A stretch of DNA of 64,000 bases, taken from NCBI GenBank assembly GCA_000733355.1, contig JNVV01000017.1, positions 347,792 through 411,791 on the forward strand. Direction: 5' to 3'. The translations under genes and the position numbers were made by a program. Positions 4,711 to 29,856 of the stretch are shown piece by piece. The notes under the pieces were generated by a model that saw nothing but the letters and a program-made list of their open reading frames with translations, was not told the origin of the DNA and searched no databases. The DNA comes from Falciphora oryzae. Lineage: Eukaryota; Ascomycota; Sordariomycetes; Magnaporthales; Magnaporthaceae. How positions within the stretch are numbered: the stretch's first letter is position 1; the number at the start of each line of letters is the position of its first letter.

Positions 4711-5010
4711 TATACAACGCGGCCAAATTTAACGGTATAAAAAATCGGGTTGCTCGTTGGGATTCTGTGCGATTAGGGCTTTATAATGATATATAAATTA
4801 TTTTTATAGCGTAAAAATTGGCTGTTTTATATAGGGGTAATCGATATTTTTCCTTTTTTATATGTAAAAAATCGATCGATCACCCTTGTAAAAAACGGCT
4901 AATTTTTATCCGATAAATATAATTTATATATCATTTTAAAGCCCTAATCGCACAGAATCCCAACGAACAATCCGATTTTTTATACCGTTAAATTTGGCTG
5001 GGTTATATAA
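4711..5010. repeat. AT-rich palindromic MITE-like element
   Basis: Bases 4711-4805 are repeated in inverted orientation at about 4907-5010; both arms carry GCCAAATTTAACGGTATAAA and GGGATTCTGTGCGATTAGGG. The 100-bp middle is AT-rich. A looser, direct relative of the same arm lies at 4565-4640. There is no coding capacity. It directly abuts the foldback element at 5027. Confidence 0.7.
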
Positions 5011-5026
5011 ACGGTTTATATATATA

Positions 5027-5454
5027 ACGTGGTTCACTACCGAGTGACGCACCCTCACCGAGTGACGCACTCCAAATCCCATACTAAACGGCGTTTTTTT
5101 CAATTAAATAACTCGCTCAATTTGAGGCTAAACTCCACCAAAATTAAAGCAGTTATATTTAACTTTATAATAATTGTAATTTGAATTTTCCGCATTTTTA
5201 TTATTAGTCCTTTTGGGTTAGTTCGCAACACTGTGTAATACACTGTGTACAATACGCAATTAACCCAAAAGGAGTAATAATAAAAATGTGGAAAATTCAA
5301 ATTACAATTATTATAAAGTTAAATATAACTGCTTTAATTTTAGTGGAGTTTAGCCCCAAATTGAGCGAGTTATTTAATTGAAAAAAACGCCGTTTAGTAT
5401 GGGATTTGGAGTGCGTCACTCGGTGAGGGTGCGTCACTCGGTGGTGAACCACGT
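5027..5454. mobile_element. Foldback DNA element (TA-flanked), copy 1
   Basis: The element has two inverted arms of about 200 bp (5027-5232 and 5250-5454) that match almost base for base around a short loop. It starts ACGTGGTTCAC, ends GTGAACCACGT, and is flanked on both sides by TA, as expected for Tc1/mariner-type target duplication. Just inside each end are two direct copies of an ACCGAGTGACGCAC motif, then CCAAATCCCATACTAAACG. It has no transposase, so it would need one supplied in trans. The same family occurs at 24525-24962 and, cut by a gap, at 13518. Confidence 0.85.
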
Positions 5455-5710
5455 TAGCAAATATATATATTTTATATATGCCAATCCGATACGGCCCGTG
5501 CACTTGGGCAATATATATATTCGTATAAAGCCCTTATTCTAGCCATTCTTTTTATGCAAAAACCTTTAAAAACGGTACAACTGTTATTTTTTAATTAAAT
5601 CGATAGTTTTAATATAAAAAACTAGTTTTATTTTATTTTAACGAATTTTATATATATAATTATAAAAATTTGCAAAAACCTTCATTATTTATAATATATA
5701 ATAAATATAT
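5455..5710. other. AT-rich spacer, no gene
   Basis: This is very AT-rich sequence between the foldback element and the Copia LTR, ending in the target-site copy TATAT (5706-5710). No coding signal is seen. Confidence 0.5.
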
Positions 5711-6010
5711 TGTTGGTAGGAGTGGTACTCCTGTTGGGCTCGGAGATCTCCAAAGAAGGTGAACAATGATCTTTTATATCAGAGGATCAATCTATTCTTA
5801 TGCACGAAAAGGAAAGGAATCTATCTGCCAGAGAGGGAGCAGAAGGGAGGCTATATATACACGATCCAGATCACCAAAGGGGCCCTCCCCTGCTCCCAAC
5901 CTCCACGGGCTTGCGGGTCCTCGGATCCCGTGATCAGAGATCACGGGACAGGAGGATCCGGCCCTCTCTAAGCTCTGCCGATTGCCTGCACAGGCCAGTG
6001 CAATCCAACA
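5711..6010 (-). repeat. Copia LTR (3' LTR with respect to gag-pol)
   Basis: A 300-bp LTR with TGTTGG..CCAACA ends, preceded by target copy TATAT. A purine-rich run (AAAAGAAAGAG on the minus strand, about 6020-6032) lies near its inner edge and could be the polypurine tract, though it is not directly adjacent. Confidence 0.93.
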
Positions 6011-6373
6011 CCGGCAACTCTTTCTTTTGTGCAGGCAATTGGGAGATCCCTTCACGTGACAAATCCCGTGATCCCAGCTCTACTGGATCTTGTAAGGTTA
6101 ATAACAAAGGGAATCTCCGGACCAAGTAGTCCGGATCAGGAAAAGACTGAATAGCCGCTTTCAAAGCGGCTCGTCGCCCTTAATAACGATAATAGGAACG
6201 ATGACGTGATGGGGTCCACCGGACTTGGCTTGCGGTGCGCGGGCAAAGCGGTGGGTGGTGCAATTAGAAAGCACAATAGCAGTGAATAACCTCAACGGGC
6301 TATTCAGGTTGTAACTCAATGCGGGACAATAGGAACGCAGATTAAGGACTCTCTGCAGGCCGGGTCCAGGCTC

Positions 6374-6379
6374 TATAAA
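6374..6379 (+). promoter_or_regulatory. TATA box candidate of the antisense gene
   Basis: TATAAA lies in CTCTATAAAGAG, about 160 bp upstream of the ATG at 6537, between the LTR and the antisense gene. It supports a promoter inside the retrotransposon pointing toward pol. There is no experimental evidence of transcription. Confidence 0.5.
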
Positions 6380-6536
6380 GAGCCTTCCTTCCGGCCCTTA
6401 AGAGGTCGGGCAACTTGATCTGGTAAACCTCGTTGATCCAGATCGTCCGCCTGTATTGCCCTCTGTTTGCAGCATCTTTTACCCGCTCTATTCGATCAGT
6501 CTTCTGTCGGTTGACTTCTCGGTCGCTCTCGTCACT

Positions 6537-7384
6537 ATGGGCAACAAAAAGGGCAACACCAAGTCTGGTGCGGTCGCCAAAAAGGCTCGGAAGCCTCGAT
6601 CTGTCGTGCGCAGCGGTGGTAGATCCTCAAAGCGGCTCCAAGGCCTTGCCGCTAAGGCTCTCGATCTTGCGATGGTCAATCCTGCTCCCGGCGTCGCTAA
6701 CGATCAGTTCCTGGACCCGTTCGACGATAACGCCGATCTCCAAAACGCCGGTCCTGCGCCTGCCTCGTCGGACAAAAAGAAGCCGGCCATCAAAATCGTT
6801 AGGCCTGCTGTTGGTGGCAAAACGGTTTCTGCGCCTGGTCCGCGCGGTGGAAAGGGCGCCCTGCGCGCTATCCCTTGCCTGGGTTGCCTAAAGTCCGCTC
6901 TCGCCGGCAAAATGAAGGAAGGCGATGGCTGTCGGGATACAGTCCCGGTCAAAAAGCGCTGTTGGCTGTGCGCGTCGGGCCACACCTGTCAGCCTATGTA
7001 AGCATCTCGATCTTCCCTCATCTCTTTTAAAGCTCGTTCTAACTATCCTCCAGTCCCTCGATCGCGCTGCGTCCGGCGCTCAAATTCATAGTGGAATGGG
7101 GTCGCGATAATCGCGACAAAAAGGTAAGTTTGTTCTCCTAGTTTAGTGCTTTAGGTGCGCTTGCTAACGTGTTTTCTTGTGATCCTCAAACCCTTAATAA
7201 GTGGCGTATCACCACCAAATGCATGCTGCAGCTGGCGGCTGAGGATGGGGATCAGGAGGATGCCAATGCCGACCTCCTAATAATGACGCGATCAAAGCGG
7301 AAGGCGGCGGGCCGCGCGGCCGCTCTAAGGATGTACGAAACTGCCTGGCTGGGAAATGGCAAAGATAACGAGGAGGAGGAGTAA
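6537..7384 (+). CDS. Intact antisense gene inside the Copia element; lysine-rich protein with Cys/His cluster
   Basis: The three exons are 6537-6997, 7054-7123 and 7202-7384, with introns GTAAGC..CAG and GTAAGT..AAG. Each intron has a CTAAC-type branch site. The joined frame is open for 237 residues and ends in TAA. The N-terminus is basic (MGNKKGNTKSG, then Lys/Arg/Ser/Gly-rich), which would suit nuclear or nucleic-acid binding. Residues about 113-150 carry C-x2-C, C, C-x2-C and H-x-C (CLGC, GCRD, RCWLC, GHTC), a plausible zinc-binding cluster. The C-terminus is acidic (NEEEE). The gene converges on pol, whose end is 180 bp away. Because it is antisense to the genomic RNA, its introns would survive retrotransposition. 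Function is unknown; possibilities are a Gag-like binding protein, a regulator of the element, or a captured host gene. Confidence 0.75.
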
Positions 7385-7566
7385 AGGAAAGTTTGACGGG
7401 ATATCTAGAAAAAGTTTGGTTGTAAAATTGTTTGTTGTTTCGACATGGTCGTTTGTTGCTCTTTTGATCTGAGCATCTTTATTTTGTCGATCTTTGCGTT
7501 GTCTTTAGGGATTTTGGCGTTTTGGTACCATGGAAAACGATCTTATATGCATTCCCTAGCTCTTTT

Positions 7567-10500
7567 TTATTTATAATCCCGCTTCACCCATCCTTCCACT
7601 CTCACGGTGGTTGAATTGCTACTTACAAAGTCCTCCAAAGCTTTGTTTGGCAGCTCCTTTGTTATAGCGTCGGCCGGGTTATCTGCCCCTGCGATCCATC
7701 TGATTTCGTCGATCTCGCGCGCTTCGTAGGATTCGCGGAAAGCCATAATATTTATCATAAGGCGTTTCTCCGTAGTAATCCCAAGCTAAACAAAGCATTG
7801 GTAAAGCGAAAAGCTGTCGGTGCAGATGATTAATTTATAGGGGGGCAGATCCAGCCTTTTACAGATCGTTGCGAGCGTTGTTTTCAGGACATAGCCAATA
7901 TCGAAGCCGCTAACCATGCCGTAAATTTCGCTCGCTAAAACGCTTTTTGTAACCCTTTTGCACTTTACGGAGCTCCAGTGCAGGATGTTGCCGGTAACCC
8001 GGAAGCTATTTTCCTGCTTTGTAGCTCCTTCGTTACCTAGGACGATCACAAAGCCGATTTGTGAACTAAGGTCCTGGTTGTTGGCGAAAGACCCGTCCAC
8101 AAACACATACAGGCTGGCTGTTTGCAAATTTAACTGTACGTAGTTCAAGCCTCTATCTGCATTATCGATCTGCCATTGGATCCTTTTGTTAAACTTAAAC
8201 ACGTCTGTATCTACAGGATCTTTAGCTTGTGCAGCCACAAAGTAGTCGAAAGCGGCTTCTGGCTGGCATATCGAGCTTACATATGCCCCTCGTGCGCGCT
8301 GTACGACGTACTGCTGTTGGGTATCGTCTGATCCCGCAGTTACCAGCTCCAAACGATCTGCCTGTCCTTTTTGCTGCATAGTAACAGCGTTTTGTCTGAC
8401 TAAAATCTTGCACCCGTTAAAATTGCCTTCGTTTCCGGGGTGCAGGATCGATTTTGGTTTCGCTTTAAACCCGGCTTCCTGGAGGGCTGTTTCCTCCCTT
8501 TGCATAAACTCGGCGTTGCCTAAATTCAAAGTATCGTCGGTCTGCATGCCAACTATTCCAAAGCTTTAGCCGATCTTTGAAACAAGCAAGCACGGATCAT
8601 ATTCCGAAGTGGAACAGTCCAGTCGTTTTTTATGGTGCCTCTAGTACGTGACGAACCAGTGCAGCCCTGCCTCGGCCAATCCGTAAAGCGGTTTGATTAG
8701 TTGAAAGGCCGTGCCCTTTGGGTACCGATGTTCCAGTTCCCTGGGAAGGCGCAGAATAACCTCCCTTTGCAGCTCTATTTCAAACTGGGTGTACGTTTGG
8801 CTAATGTCTTTAATTATTAGCATAAAGCCTCGTTCCATAAGGGACGGGCTGAGCGCGAGGATCAGGCGTTAGCTGCATCGCATAATCGTTAGGGACTGGG
8901 TAAGGAAGCTTTTCTTTTCCCAATCGCTGTATCTTTGCACCACAAGTCTCGACTTTTTATAGGGGATCGAGTTGGTGCTTTTAACTTTTCTAACGAAGCG
9001 GGACCTAAAAACTTTCGCGTTACTAATGCCGCTTAGTCTAATCGGTTTGATTACTTCGGCGGCAAGGAGTGCTTCGATCTTAAGCTAGTTGGATTTCTCG
9101 AATGGGCGTCCGGGAGCTTTAATTTTGCCCTCCTATCGGTATTGGAGCGCTAGACGTAGGGATTCCTTTTTTTTTTTGGGCTAGGAATGCCGTTGCTGTT
9201 TGGCGTGGGGGTCGTTCTCGTCGTTTGGGGGCTGGTGCCTCGGTTGCCGTTAGTGCCGGTGCTTTTTGGGCAGGTGCCCTCCGTGGTCTACCGGGCCTGG
9301 CGGGTGCGGGTGGGGGTGCAACTTCGATCTCGGAAAGGGCTTCGCTATCGCTGGACGCACTTGCCGCCATTGTTCTCGTAATCTTTGGCGGTTTCCCTTT
9401 CCGTTTTGGTTCCGTTTGTGGTGGATACTCGAACGGGGCTGGTTGTTTTTCCGTTGTTGCAGTTTTTTATTTTTGCGCTTTGTGGTATGGTTTGCAGGCA
9501 GTGTTCCGGAACGTTGAAGGGCCGTTGACAGTTTCGATTGTTACTTCGTTGTCTGCCACCCAAAGGACCTTGTACGGTCCTTTCCACTCGCCGTTTTCCC
9601 TGTGCACCAACACTTCTGTTCCTAAAACCAGCGCGCTGGGCAAAGTGTTTTTCGTGCTCGGCCCGTTGCGCGTGTTTAGGGCGTCCTGTACCTTGCGTTT
9701 AGCATGGAGCTTTTGGAACTTTCCCATAGCTTTGGTAATCGCTGCCGCTTTTTGAACCTGGCTTTTCGTTAGGGGAGAGTTGTTGTTGATGCGTGGTATT
9801 GCTTCGAAAACGAGCAGTGTAGGGATAAGGCCGTTAGGTCCTACCGTGTCGTTTATGGCTTTGACAGCTCTTTGGAGCACGGAATCGGGGTGCAAATTAG
9901 GGCATTCCTTCCGGATTATTTCGTAAGCTCGGCGGAATGGTCCGTAGTACTTTTCCACCTTGCCTATCGACTAGTGCGCTTCGATCGGGACTTGGTTGCA
10001 GGTGATCCCAAAAAGTTTTGCTTCCGCTTGGAATTCGCTCGCTGCAAAGTTGGTACCTGCGTCGTGAAATACAACGTTTGGGGGCCCCAAATAGGTATCC
10101 AACCAGCAGCGTTTGAGAGCTTCCCAAATCTTTTTTGCGCTTATGTTTTTTAGGAACGTTGCGGCGCTAAATGCTGTGCTCGCATCGATTATATAAAGTA
10201 CTGGTTTGCCGTCTAAATGCATCACGTCAACGACAACTTCATAGTTGAAATCGATGTTTTTTTTAAGCGTGAACCGGAACCGTTATTGTGCGGGTGCTTT
10301 GATTTGGCAGAAATGGCACACGCGTTTAATCATTTCCAAAGCGTTGCGATCAGTCTCGTGGCCAGCTCGTTAGAAAACAATCTAAAGTCGTTTGACAAAG
10401 GGGTGCCCAAAGCGTTTGTAAACGCGCTTAAGCTCAGCCTCCGTAAAATACGTTGCTCCCGCGCTCTTTGGTTCTATTATGAACGAGATGCTTGTCGTAA

Positions 10501-10950
10501 CGTAGCTGACCTCGTCTAGAAAGAACCAGGGGTGGCCGTGGCGTTTTATAATCGGAACGCGCTTGCCTTGCCTGGTTACCAGCTCGTTGCGGGTGTTGTT
10601 AAGGTATACCCCGAGCGTATCCATGTCGTCGTAGGCACTACATGGAATGTAATAGTGCCTATCGGGGTCGGTAGGATGATTTCTCCTATGTTGGAAATGG
10701 CTTTTCCGGATCTAAAGCGCACGCGTCTTTTCTTCCTGGTGGTATCTAAAAAAAGATCAAGTAGATGGCGTTGCAAAGCTCGGAATTGGGTCGTTCCGGC
10801 AGTTGATACTTCTGCCGCGCCGGTATCGGGGATAATGCCGTACCATTTGTCGGTGGTTATAAGCATGTATTGGACAAGTACCTGCTTTGTTGGTACCGTG
10901 GGTTCCTTTTTGTTTGAACTCGGCGCCCTGGTACCGTGGAGGCGGTGCAG
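7567..10950 (-). pseudogene. Copia pol (protease-integrase-RT-RNase H), degenerate
   Basis: Reading the minus strand downward: the aspartic protease motif DTGAAEVSTAG (about 10830); GAG-pre-integrase with RRFGHP-like KRFGHP (about 10400); the integrase core with Asp in YIIDAST and FHDAGTNF and Glu in PIEAH (10225-9971); then the integrase C-terminal part (9958-9467). Reverse transcriptase follows with IKPLYGLAEAG (about 8690) and the catalytic QTDDT (about 8540). RNase H follows with VDGSFA, LASEIYG, CTDSFSLY and ADNPAD (8120-7680), ending at 7567. Catalytic residues are largely kept, but stops interrupt the frame. One example is a TAG directly after PIEAH, where the family has Trp. Confidence 0.88.
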
Positions 10951-11099
10951 GAAGGCCTTATCGGCGAGGTATATTGCCGTGGCTGGTGTTATAAAATGGG
11001 TGCTTGCTGGATTATACTCGTTATCCGTTATGTAATCGGGGGTATCTTTAAACGCGGCTTCCTGGTCTTCCTCGTCGCTGCTACCAGGCTCGTAGGTTG

Positions 11100-12785
11100 C
11101 GAGGAATTATCTGTATCCCTTCTTCGGCTCGCCGCGAGCTTTTCGCCCTCGTTTTCACAGCTTTTTGGCTTGCCTTTATTTTTCGGGCGTGTAATCTTTG
11201 GAGCGGTGTTTTAATTTGCCGCACGTTTAGCACTTTAGCTTTCGCTTTCCGGGTTTTCCGGATCGGAAGTTGTTTCGAGTGTTTGTGCGGTAATCGGGGC
11301 GAGTAGCGTTCCCGAATCGTTGCTCCATAAAATGGATGCTTGATATATCAACGTTCTTTTCCACTTGCATCGTACTCCTAAGCTGGGAGGCCAAGCCTTT
11401 AAAGGTCTTTTCGGGTTTGGAAAGGGCCATTTTTAGCTCAGGAATTCCCTGGATTGCACGGATGGTGCTTGTTACGAGCTGGTGATCCTTTTGGTAGGCA
11501 GGTCCTAATGCTCGTTAGCAAATTTGGAGTTTGTCAAGCAGGATTTGTAGTATTTCCATATTGGATTTATTTGCGTTTCCGCTTTTAAAACGTACAGTTT
11601 GGAAGGTGATCGAGCTCCAGTTTGTGTAGTACTGTTGTTTGTTAACTTTAGTGTCGAAATGCTTTTAGAGGGCTAGGTAGATCGCCTTAAAGGTATAACC
11701 TTTACCTATTTTAAAGGTAAAATATCGAGCAGCACGGCCCCGTAGGGTTAATGGGAAAAGCGCATAGAGCTGTGGAAGGGGAATCCCAAGCATTTCGCAT
11801 ATGTTTGTAAAAAATAGGACCTTGTCGTCGAGGATATCGTACTGTTCCCCTGTGTAGTTGTGCTTTTTATCCCATGCTTGTTTGAACGTTTTTATTGTGC
11901 TCGTATCGATTATAGCATTAGGGATTTCAACCGGTAGGAGCTTCCGGTAGTTAGATAGTGGTGGAGGTGTTGTTTCGTACCGGGCTGGCATTAGGGTTTC
12001 GAGGCGTAATCGTTGGCGCGTTATTCTGTTGGTTAGCCGCGCCTGGGCTTCTAGGTACGCCTGGTGGTAGCGTCTATGGCTAACCGCCGCGGCCGTAGGT
12101 TTCGTTTGTTTTTAAAAAGGGTTACCGAAATCGTTATAATCTGTGAACCTCTTTTCTTTTAGTTGTCGGAGCAGTGGTGGGGTTGCCTAAAGTTGGGTCG
12201 ACAAGTTTAGCTATGGGCCAGTTCTACCCGTCGTGGGATCACCGCGATTTGGTTCGTGGGATCGCGAGATCGGTATTTCGCTTATTGACCGTTTGGGGTT
12301 TAAAAGGGGCGGTGACTAAGGGGGTTGGTCCGAAATGAAGGCCTCGGCCGGTTGATTGGTCTCGGTTTTTACGTTCGTCTTATAATCGGGAGATTGGGGG
12401 TTTTATGTTCTTTCGATCGCCGCGTTTTATGCCGCTGTCTTTGTAATAAATCTTGCGAAACGGATGGTAATTTTGAGCGTTGCATAGCCTGGGAGGGTGA
12501 TTTTTCTTTTTGTCAAAAAGGCTTTAAACGCTCGTGTAATCCGGATATCAATATCCTCAAAATGTTGCTGGGTTTATCCCTTAAAGTCTTCGAGGTAGGC
12601 AGCAAATAGGTTTTCGCCTTTGTATGGTTTGTTTGCGATTATTGTTTTGATAATCCAGGTGTTTTGGCGCTCGTTGGATGCGTCGTTTGGTAAGCATCCT
12701 AGGGTGAAGTTCTGCTCGTCGTAAAATTGTAAATCGCATACGGCGAGGATAGTTTTCGGCAAACCAAAGTCCTTAAATGCGTTTA
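11100..12785 (-). pseudogene. Copia gag, degenerate
   Basis: Minus-strand frames 12762-12574, 11991-11665 and 11430-11227 line up as pieces of one Gag polyprotein separated by stops. The middle piece has the capsid-like FKQAWDKKHNY and LRGRAARYF segments. The last piece runs into a zinc knuckle (KC-x2-CGKLKH..) whose first Cys is followed by a stop and whose last Cys reads Tyr. It would package element RNA in an active copy; here it is dead. Confidence 0.75.
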
Positions 12786-12902
12786 GGAGCTCCTAATCCA
12801 GGATCTTTTGCTCTTTGCGTTCGTTGTTGTCCGGGTTGGCTGATCTGGACATGTTGTCGGGGGTTGGCAAGCGATATTGCCTGGGGTAATCTTTTAATCC
12901 AA

Positions 12903-13140
12903 AAACCGCTCGAGCTTGCAGGACAGGTCGGGGCTTCCGGGGATCACGCAACGCCTTCCGCGAAAATCGTTAAATCTTTTAACCGGAAACCGCTCGAGCC
13001 TGCCGGACAGGTCGGGGTTTTTAGGAGAGCCTTGCCGGTCTTTTTCGAATGCGCTACCAAGCGGGAGATTGGGGGTCTCCTGTTCCAAATCCAGTCGGAA
13101 ACCGCTTTGGCCTGCAGGACAGGTCGGGGTTTCCAAAGGG
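12903..13140 (-). repeat. Three dispersed repeats in the Copia leader
   Basis: A block AAACCGCTCGAGC..GGACAGGTCGGGG occurs three times, starting near 12903, 12987 and 13099, in the untranslated leader between the 5' LTR and gag. Spacing is 84 and 112 bp. Repeated leader blocks may serve RNA dimerisation or packaging, but that is inference. Confidence 0.7.
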
Positions 13141-13160
13141 ACCCTCTACCTTGCTTCTCT

Positions 13161-13180
13161 GTGTTGCCCTGGGGCAACAC
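13161..13180. promoter_or_regulatory. Hairpin beside the 5' LTR, at the primer-binding position
   Basis: GTGTTGCCC and GGGCAACAC are perfect 9-base inverted arms with a 2-base centre, 8 bp inside the 5' LTR (13188). In LTR retrotransposons this position normally holds the primer-binding site. I could not match it to a tRNA end or a half-tRNA by eye. Confidence 0.5.
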
Positions 13181-13187
13181 TGATTAG

Positions 13188-13487
13188 TGTTGGTAGAAGT
13201 GGTACTCCTGTTGGGCTCGGAGATTTCCAAAAAAGGTGAACAATGATCCTTTATATTAAAGGATCAATCTATTTTTGTGCACGAAAAGGAAAGGAATCTA
13301 TCTGCTAGAGAGGGAGCAGAAGGGAGGCTATATATATACGATCCAGATCACCAAAGGGGCCCTCCCCTGCTCCCAACCTCCGCGGGCTTGCGGGTCCTCG
13401 GATCCCGTAATCAGAGATCACGGGACAGGAGGATCCGGCCCTCTCTGAGCTCTGCCGATTGCCTGCACAGGCCAGTGCAATCCAACA
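13188..13487 (-). repeat. Copia LTR (5' LTR with respect to gag-pol)
   Basis: A 300-bp LTR differing from the partner LTR by 13 transitions (C/T or G/A) and nothing else. It is followed by target copy TATAT (13488-13492). Confidence 0.93.
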
Positions 13488-13517: not shown

Positions 13518-13673
13518 ACGTGGTTTACAAGTAAGCGGCGCACACAAGTAAGTGGCGCACTTCGAAATCACGTGTTAAACGCGTTTTTCGACACCCTTGC
13601 TAACTCGGCCAATTTAAGCCCAAATTTTACCAAATTTTAACAGGTTATATGCAACTACGTAGTAAATGTAATG
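13518..13673. mobile_element. Foldback DNA element, copy 3 (cut by assembly gap)
   Basis: It starts ACGTGGTTTAC after TA, then carries two copies of an ACAAGTAAGTGGCGCAC-like motif and a block (AAATCACGTGTTAAACGC) matching the same positions in the copies at 5027 and 24525. The right part is lost in the N run. The gap may exist because such a palindrome is hard to assemble. Confidence 0.75.
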
Positions 13674-14605
13674 NNNNNNNNNNNNNNNNNNNNNNNNNNN
13701 NNNNNNNNNNNNNNNNNNNNNNNNNNNNNNNNNNNNNNNNNNNNNNNNNNNNNNNNNNNNNNNNNNNNNNNNNNNNNNNNNNNNNNNNNNNNNNNNNNNN
13801 NNNNNNNNNNNNNNNNNNNNNNNNNNNNNNNNNNNNNNNNNNNNNNNNNNNNNNNNNNNNNNNNNNNNNNNNNNNNNNNNNNNNNNNNNNNNNNNNNNNN
13901 NNNNNNNNNNNNNNNNNNNNNNNNNNNNNNNNNNNNNNNNNNNNNNNNNNNNNNNNNNNNNNNNNNNNNNNNNNNNNNNNNNNNNNNNNNNNNNNNNNNN
14001 NNNNNNNNNNNNNNNNNNNNNNNNNNNNNNNNNNNNNNNNNNNNNNNNNNNNNNNNNNNNNNNNNNNNNNNNNNNNNNNNNNNNNNNNNNNNNNNNNNNN
14101 NNNNNNNNNNNNNNNNNNNNNNNNNNNNNNNNNNNNNNNNNNNNNNNNNNNNNNNNNNNNNNNNNNNNNNNNNNNNNNNNNNNNNNNNNNNNNNNNNNNN
14201 NNNNNNNNNNNNNNNNNNNNNNNNNNNNNNNNNNNNNNNNNNNNNNNNNNNNNNNNNNNNNNNNNNNNNNNNNNNNNNNNNNNNNNNNNNNNNNNNNNNN
14301 NNNNNNNNNNNNNNNNNNNNNNNNNNNNNNNNNNNNNNNNNNNNNNNNNNNNNNNNNNNNNNNNNNNNNNNNNNNNNNNNNNNNNNNNNNNNNNNNNNNN
14401 NNNNNNNNNNNNNNNNNNNNNNNNNNNNNNNNNNNNNNNNNNNNNNNNNNNNNNNNNNNNNNNNNNNNNNNNNNNNNNNNNNNNNNNNNNNNNNNNNNNN
14501 NNNNNNNNNNNNNNNNNNNNNNNNNNNNNNNNNNNNNNNNNNNNNNNNNNNNNNNNNNNNNNNNNNNNNNNNNNNNNNNNNNNNNNNNNNNNNNNNNNNN
14601 NNNNN
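13674..14605. other. Assembly gap (932 N)
   Basis: A run of unknown bases. Open frames crossing it have no meaning. Confidence 1.
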
Positions 14606-29656: not shown

Positions 29657-29856
29657 NNNNNNNNNNNNNNNNNNNNNNNNNNNNNNNNNNNNNNNNNNNN
29701 NNNNNNNNNNNNNNNNNNNNNNNNNNNNNNNNNNNNNNNNNNNNNNNNNNNNNNNNNNNNNNNNNNNNNNNNNNNNNNNNNNNNNNNNNNNNNNNNNNNN
29801 NNNNNNNNNNNNNNNNNNNNNNNNNNNNNNNNNNNNNNNNNNNNNNNNNNNNNNNN
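29657..29856. other. Assembly gap (200 N)
   Basis: A run of exactly 200 unknown bases, probably a placeholder of arbitrary length. Confidence 1.

Follow-up and report, generated by a model that had tools for sequence, protein, structure and literature searches.

A sequence that contains introns is normally assumed never to have gone through an RNA stage. How, then, does a gene with introns come to reside inside a retrotransposon? The question is raised by a stretch of 64,000 nucleotides from the ascomycete Falciphora oryzae (C17:347792-411791; hereafter, the window), in which a Copia element occupies positions 5711-13487 with pol on the minus strand, and a gene of three exons lies antisense to it. 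The original prediction had described this layout from the letters of the window: a Copia element bounded by long terminal repeats (LTRs) and, between its pol and 3' LTR, an intron-bearing gene on the opposite strand. We followed it up by searching the genome (50.18 Mb, 123 contigs), and the layout was confirmed. With reasonable confidence, we interpret the gene as an accessory gene of a Copia lineage, antisense to gag-pol, that has kept its introns through retrotransposition and whose product probably acts on the element within the nucleus.

The gene frame in the window joins 6537-6997, 7054-7123 and 7202-7384 on the plus strand into 237 residues without a stop. Exon 1 (6537-6997) encodes a basic N-terminus and a complete six-cysteine motif, C-x2-C-x14-C-x9-C-x2-C-x5-C. 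It is followed by intron 1 (6998-7053, phase 2; GTAAGC...CTAAC...CAG), exon 2 (7054-7123), intron 2, and an exon 3 that encodes an acidic C-terminus and the stop. The end of intron 2 had been put at 7201, after an AAG, and has to be moved. The homologous acceptor 12 nt upstream is AG in two of 37 aligned copies (L034 and L053) and TAG in a sister family (L062); intron 2 therefore most likely spanned 7124-7189 originally, its limits in other copies and families, with exon 3 at 7190-7384. In the window, this acceptor (7188-7189) reads AA, and the AAG at 7201 is a putative fallback that would preserve the frame with four residues fewer. Thus, the open frame of 237 residues was upheld, whereas its description as intact is doubtful. 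The TATA box that had been proposed was also found, as TATAAA 163 bp before the ATG, and recurs at -162 to -182 in 18 of the 20 other copies examined with their surroundings; beside the gene in L022 and L024, the upstream region is absent.

The gene has at least 40 matches in the genome, at least 37 of them nearly full length, the window included. We took 20 other copies with their surroundings (L021-L040) and 17 as the gene only, which make up 37 of the 39 others among the matches listed. The LTR and upstream region stand before the gene in 18 of the 20, and pol follows it in 19; the exceptions are L022 and L024 on the upstream side and L031 on the downstream side. Both LTRs were present in 13 of the 20, one LTR-pair copy being cut by the end of the stretch taken. 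Because these copies had been chosen by their gene, we also ran the search from pol. The RNase H part of pol, an open frame at 7786-8565 on the minus strand, has 87 protein matches in the same genome, from which 57 loci were surveyed and 30 shorter matches left out. A window-type gene lies antisense on the proper side, 0.4-1.3 kb away, at 41 of these loci, an antisense gene with a DUF3716 domain at 7, and neither at 9; which type is present sorts by pol divergence. Among RNase H loci at least 75% identical (window included), 31 of 33 have the gene antisense next to them; it is missing at C82 and at C77, where the contig ends 1.2 kb away. As such a gene recurs at this position in most related elements of the genome, it seems to belong to the element itself, as a trait of a Copia clade, and not to be a chance passenger. 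Capture by the window element only is ruled out by the number of genome matches, the shared layout and the 31 RNase H loci. Recurrence of the antisense gene at the same place, which had been named as supporting evidence, was accordingly seen from both the gene and pol. The gene had been called internal cargo; it is indeed inside the element, but it is not the cargo of one element.

An element lineage might nevertheless have taken up a host gene and carried it neutrally or for the benefit of the host. Some long open frames with DUF3716 are not near any Copia RNase H (C37, C10, C13 and C1), which makes a host source of the DUF3716 type conceivable, and six window-type loci were not placed in an element (C66:160836, two on C27, C33:360739, C27:467567 and C13:483026), although C33:360739 and C27:467567 are N-terminal pieces and C13:483026 is weak. 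The window type, however, stands beside pol at 41 loci. Thirteen of the 54 loci compared are not beside pol; seven of them lie near shorter RNase H pieces on the same contig (C25, C43, C14, C30, C17, C33:302873 and C15:58920), C82 has an LTR (L031), and two belong to a divergent Copia lineage. No clear host paralog was found outside the element in the same genome, with a few fragments and weak matches unplaced. We consider a host origin of this kind quite unlikely.

Transversion distances along the element in the 20 copies distinguished at least two gene alleles and at least two gag-protease-integrase backgrounds, in three combinations. L036-L038 have the integrase of the window (and its protease and gag where covered; 0-2 per 1000) together with a different gene allele (11-13 per 1000). 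L026-L028, L030, L034, L035 and L039 carry a like gene allele (12-13 per 1000) on a background whose distance is 44-84 per 1000 in gag, in protease and in the upstream half of integrase. These mosaic combinations of allele and background indicate that the gene travels within the element through replication. The mosaics presumably arose by template switching.

We then aligned the window gene with 36 other copies (L021-L056; L024 lacks the start, and the fragment L057 was left out). Introns 1 and 2 are present in all 36, with the splice sites of intron 1 often mutated. Exon lengths differ from those of the window gene by multiples of three in 33 of the 36 copies for exon 1 and in all 36 for exons 2 and 3. 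Exon 2 measures 70 nt in all 37 sequences, exon 3 differs by 0 or 3 nt, and intron 2 is shorter by 1 nt in 25 of the 36. A sister family, represented by L062 on C3, has an RNase H that is 69% identical to that of the window and carries two stops. Its antisense gene is intact, with 209 residues, canonical splice sites, and both introns at the positions and phases found in the window. Retention of the introns through retrotransposition, proposed from the window, is therefore supported both within the family and by homologous positions and phases outside it.

In a core of 124 codons, the L062 protein and the window protein share 54% identity, and the ratio of nonsynonymous to synonymous change (omega) is 0.29 for the core, 0.33 for the local and 0.35 for the global alignment. 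Transversions are changes not caused by repeat-induced point mutation (RIP), and those between L062 and the window are in excess at third positions (p = 0.0005 for the core, 0.002 for the local alignment). The bias toward synonymous change that had been anticipated was thus found between sister families. RNase H is under more constraint (dN 0.21 versus 0.43-0.47 in the gene; dS is saturated). These comparisons establish that the gene belongs to this family and its sister families and that its introns are conserved, and codon divergence shows it to be under purifying selection between families.

Could the frame nevertheless be a chance open reading frame (ORF) with no biological meaning? Antisense ORFs are common, and the window protein has no Pfam hit. 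The conserved introns, the in-frame insertions and deletions and the intact, 54% identical sister gene already contradict this, as do two homologs returned by a single-sequence protein search, P0001 (E 9.8e-18) and P0002 (E 2e-8); we find a chance ORF barely credible. P0001 is 55% identical over 35% of the query and ends at 'CKPM', the start of intron 1, which is the end that an unspliced reading would give. A different possibility is that the antisense transcript, and not the protein, is what matters, either through double-stranded RNA or because its convergence on pol interferes with gag-pol transcription, so limiting copy number. At 48 of the 57 RNase H loci, a gene of one type or the other (window or DUF3716) converges on pol, and such a role has been proposed for plant antisense ORFs in a review (PMC7264820). 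However, an RNA-only role would not need the exon frames, splice positions and omega of about 0.3 that are conserved between the families, and we judge it unlikely.

The same layout was seen at nine further divergent loci, whose RNase H is 57-67% identical to that of the window. A divergent version of the gene occurs in L058 and L059, in a Copia lineage outside the reach of the RNase H search. In L059, the gene reads openly through 332 residues, its two introns are positioned differently, and it is followed by an antisense frame that we recognised by eye as Copia RNase H; for L058, RVT_2 was matched on the side where pol is expected (C35:43940-44350). Their exons differ by 108 transitions and 10 transversions, and because the differences are mostly transitions, this pair gives no RIP-free test.

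L061 stands for another Copia lineage (RNase H 54%), and there the corresponding position is taken by a different gene, one that matches DUF3716 (PF12511; 31 bits versus a cut-off of 22). It has two exons, an intron reading GTGTGT...GCTAAC...CAG, and 205 residues. Three of the four protein hits of L061 are named, as hypothetical proteins of Magnaporthiopsis poae, Pyricularia grisea and Polyplosphaeria fusca. This gene, which may be a diverged form of the same gene or a separate acquisition, resembles that of the window in place, orientation, the presence of an intron and several cysteines. The cysteine spacing had suggested that the window protein is a DUF3716 homolog; the comparisons did not bear this out, as Pfam gave no DUF3716 match at E up to 10 and hhalign a probability of 2.7% (E 0.017). 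Of 24 DUF3716 loci over the cut-off, 7 are antisense beside the end of a Copia pol, which gives this domain a concrete setting; the others lie elsewhere, several in long open frames. L061 itself (C61:1500-6500, near a contig end) combines the open DUF3716 gene with a long open pol frame, of 449 residues in the stretch taken and 1084 in the genome listing. Five DUF3716 matches in frames of 75 residues (C34:305517, C34:306134, C40:259, C89:93432 and C94:32058, the first four with equal scores) are not beside any listed Copia RNase H and perhaps represent another repeated DUF3716-bearing family.

Why is the frame open in the window? In the gene alignment, transitions outnumber transversions 12 to 1, and the fraction of C-to-T states in the window gene and the 36 copies depends on the next base (A, 0.455; T, 0.391; C, 0.088; G, 0.074). 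The decay is RIP-like, with CpA and CpT struck about equally and CpC and CpG spared. Other in-frame copies have 1-7 stops each. Of the 37 aligned sequences, 15 retain the ATG, 21 and 36 retain the donors of introns 1 and 2, 11 retain the intron-1 acceptor and 2 the upstream intron-2 acceptor. The window copy is the least mutated, with 20% of RIP-type sites in the derived state compared with 24-51% in the 36 others. If the other 33 in-frame copies are used for scaling, the window gene would be expected to contain about 2.0 stops, and the probability of none is 0.14. The mutation level of the window element is 0.197 in the gene, 0.234 in reverse transcriptase and RNase H, and 0.374 in gag and protease. 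The frame is probably open, then, since no other copy read has suffered so little RIP. Given this low load, the probability of 0.14 and a gene level similar to that of reverse transcriptase and RNase H, no selection on the window copy need be assumed. Our interpretation includes, with the same reasonable confidence, partial decay of the window gene by RIP.

These numbers also bear on whether the window copy has been domesticated, that is, held open by selection for the host after the death of the element. It is the only family copy read that lacks a stop, while its own pol is broken. Yet its low mutation load, the expected number of stops, the similar levels in the gene and in reverse transcriptase and RNase H, and the lost intron-2 acceptor all oppose domestication, which we regard as highly improbable; selection holding this single copy open was dropped as unnecessary. 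A frame open by chance in this copy only, which had been named as grounds for abandoning the prediction, is compatible with the data; most related elements nevertheless have the gene, and all 36 aligned copies have both introns.

How the gene might work can be outlined from its structure. It would be transcribed from integrated DNA via its own TATA promoter in the region beside the 3' LTR (6011-6536). As the gene is antisense, the genomic RNA that is reverse transcribed would bear the introns as complements, and copying of the element would leave them in; this is why they would survive retrotransposition. The protein translated from the spliced mRNA would be small, basic at its N-terminus and acidic in its tail, with a domain of six cysteines that probably binds metal. 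It would most likely act in the nucleus on transcription, RNA fate or integration of the element.

Several observations weigh against this interpretation. None of the 37 other family copies read is open, and the window copy has lost its intron-2 acceptor. Transversions within the family lack a third-position excess (polymorphic columns 12, 3 and 5 at positions 1, 2 and 3), although this within-family codon test was uninformative. TATAAA was not seen by eye at the matching place in L062, and L058 has lost a donor site and shows a 1-nt gap in exon 2 relative to L059. The window protein had no Pfam match of any kind at E up to 10, and of 7988 candidate proteins, none was matched by the family alignment (A4) at E up to 1. 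A profile search against solved structures gave, at best, glycerol kinase at E 0.7, which we took as chance and rejected as a relative. The fold model is poor (mean predicted local distance difference test score 55; 71-74 in the cysteine part). The promoter, splicing and protein are predictions from sequence, and composition is what suggests both metal binding by the six-cysteine domain and nuclear action.

A spliced antisense gene of a retroelement is known from HTLV-1, whose HBZ gene keeps its intron since it is read from the provirus and encodes a nuclear regulator; HBZ differs from the window gene in having its promoter in the 3' LTR, in encoding a bZIP protein and in belonging to an animal retrovirus. 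Among fungi, brtn was reportedly described in Boty-like elements of Botrytis cinerea by Zhao et al. 2011. Antisense additional ORFs (aORFs) are reported in LTR elements, fungal Boty included (PMC11963269, PMC8365987); brtn is named among them (PMC7264820) and placed in BcGypsy1 (PMC8365987). As described, brtn likewise lies in a fungal LTR element, antisense between pol and the 3' LTR, but its host element is Gypsy, whereas that of the window is Copia. Plant examples are gene23 of Grande, RIRE2 and the Retand ORF with TRP28; an own promoter and a nuclear protein are reported for Grande, and a regulator role is proposed for plant aORFs (PMC7264820, PMC11963269). These differ from the window gene in element type and encode unrelated proteins, and the word 'intron' is absent from PMC11963269. 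Plant Ogre and EVADE (PMC12786077) are LTR retrotransposons with functional introns, in sense orientation within the genomic RNA, that make subgenomic RNAs; the introns of the window gene are on the opposite strand. The same source takes loss of sense introns on retrotransposition as established by intron reporter assays and, for extra ORFs in fungal LTR elements, cites works on Tuber Tmt1 and anaerobic fungi. Among the titles and abstract openings searched, we found neither an intron-bearing antisense gene in Copia nor DUF3716 in Copia, and the passage on PF12511 in PMC5225507 does not mention Copia. On this basis, antisense additional genes as such are already known, and what appears to be new is the intron-bearing antisense gene in Copia and DUF3716 as part of a Copia element.

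Within a single genome, then, more than one Copia lineage has carried introns through retrotransposition on the strand opposite to the genomic RNA, which offers a natural system for studying how spliced genes are retained by retroelements. As a tentative and rather doubtful extension, an intron-bearing antisense cysteine-rich gene might be an ancient hallmark of ascomycete Copia elements, with DUF3716, a fungal family whose function is not known, being partly a Copia accessory protein of the same kind and the source or descendant of host DUF3716 genes. The protein could then report the number of live integrated copies and set the activity of the element, since only spliced mRNA from integrated DNA, and never the RNA in particles, would express the gene.

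The 300-nt LTRs (3' LTR, 5711-6010; 5' LTR, 13188-13487; both minus strand) have TG..CA ends and differ at 13 sites, by transitions only. TATAT stands at both ends of the element, but in such AT-rich flanks a duplication of this sequence counts for little. The broken reverse transcriptase (C17:356303-356812, window ~8512-9021, minus strand) matches RVT_2 (PF07727) with 38.3 bits versus a cut-off of 31.6 and has three internal stops; many stops interrupt pol as a whole. Ahead of it on the minus strand, an integrase region of two open frames (9467-10282) gives matches that fall short of the cut-off, to rve at E 0.015 and to IN_DBD_C at E 0.027. The RVT_2 match above the cut-off and the integrase region before the reverse transcriptase identify the element as Copia; together with the TG..CA LTR pair, these are the features of Ty1/Copia, and the presence, in most family copies, of a gene that runs against gag-pol and lies between pol and the 3' LTR is the arrangement of the aORF-3R class. 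The probable gag frame (11665-12111, minus strand), assigned from its open frame and position, matched no Pfam family above the cut-off. Where other copies possess the region between the 3' LTR and the gene (6011-6536, plus strand), they are 87-95% identical to it; reading by eye showed that its minus strand is rich in purines near the LTR. Rfam gave no match in the window at the gathering threshold.

Runs of N at 13674-14605 (932 bases) and 29657-29856 (200 bases) make the right flank of the element unreadable far out. Near-perfect palindromes lie on the left at 5025-5456 (199-nt arms, 97% complementary) and 4711-5009 (135-nt arms, 88%), probably members of a foldback or miniature inverted-repeat transposable element family. 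Their ends read ACGTGGTTCAC...GCAC, and a similar end, CGTGGTTTACAAG...GCGCAC, occurs close to the LTR at ~13518-13543 and also in L060.
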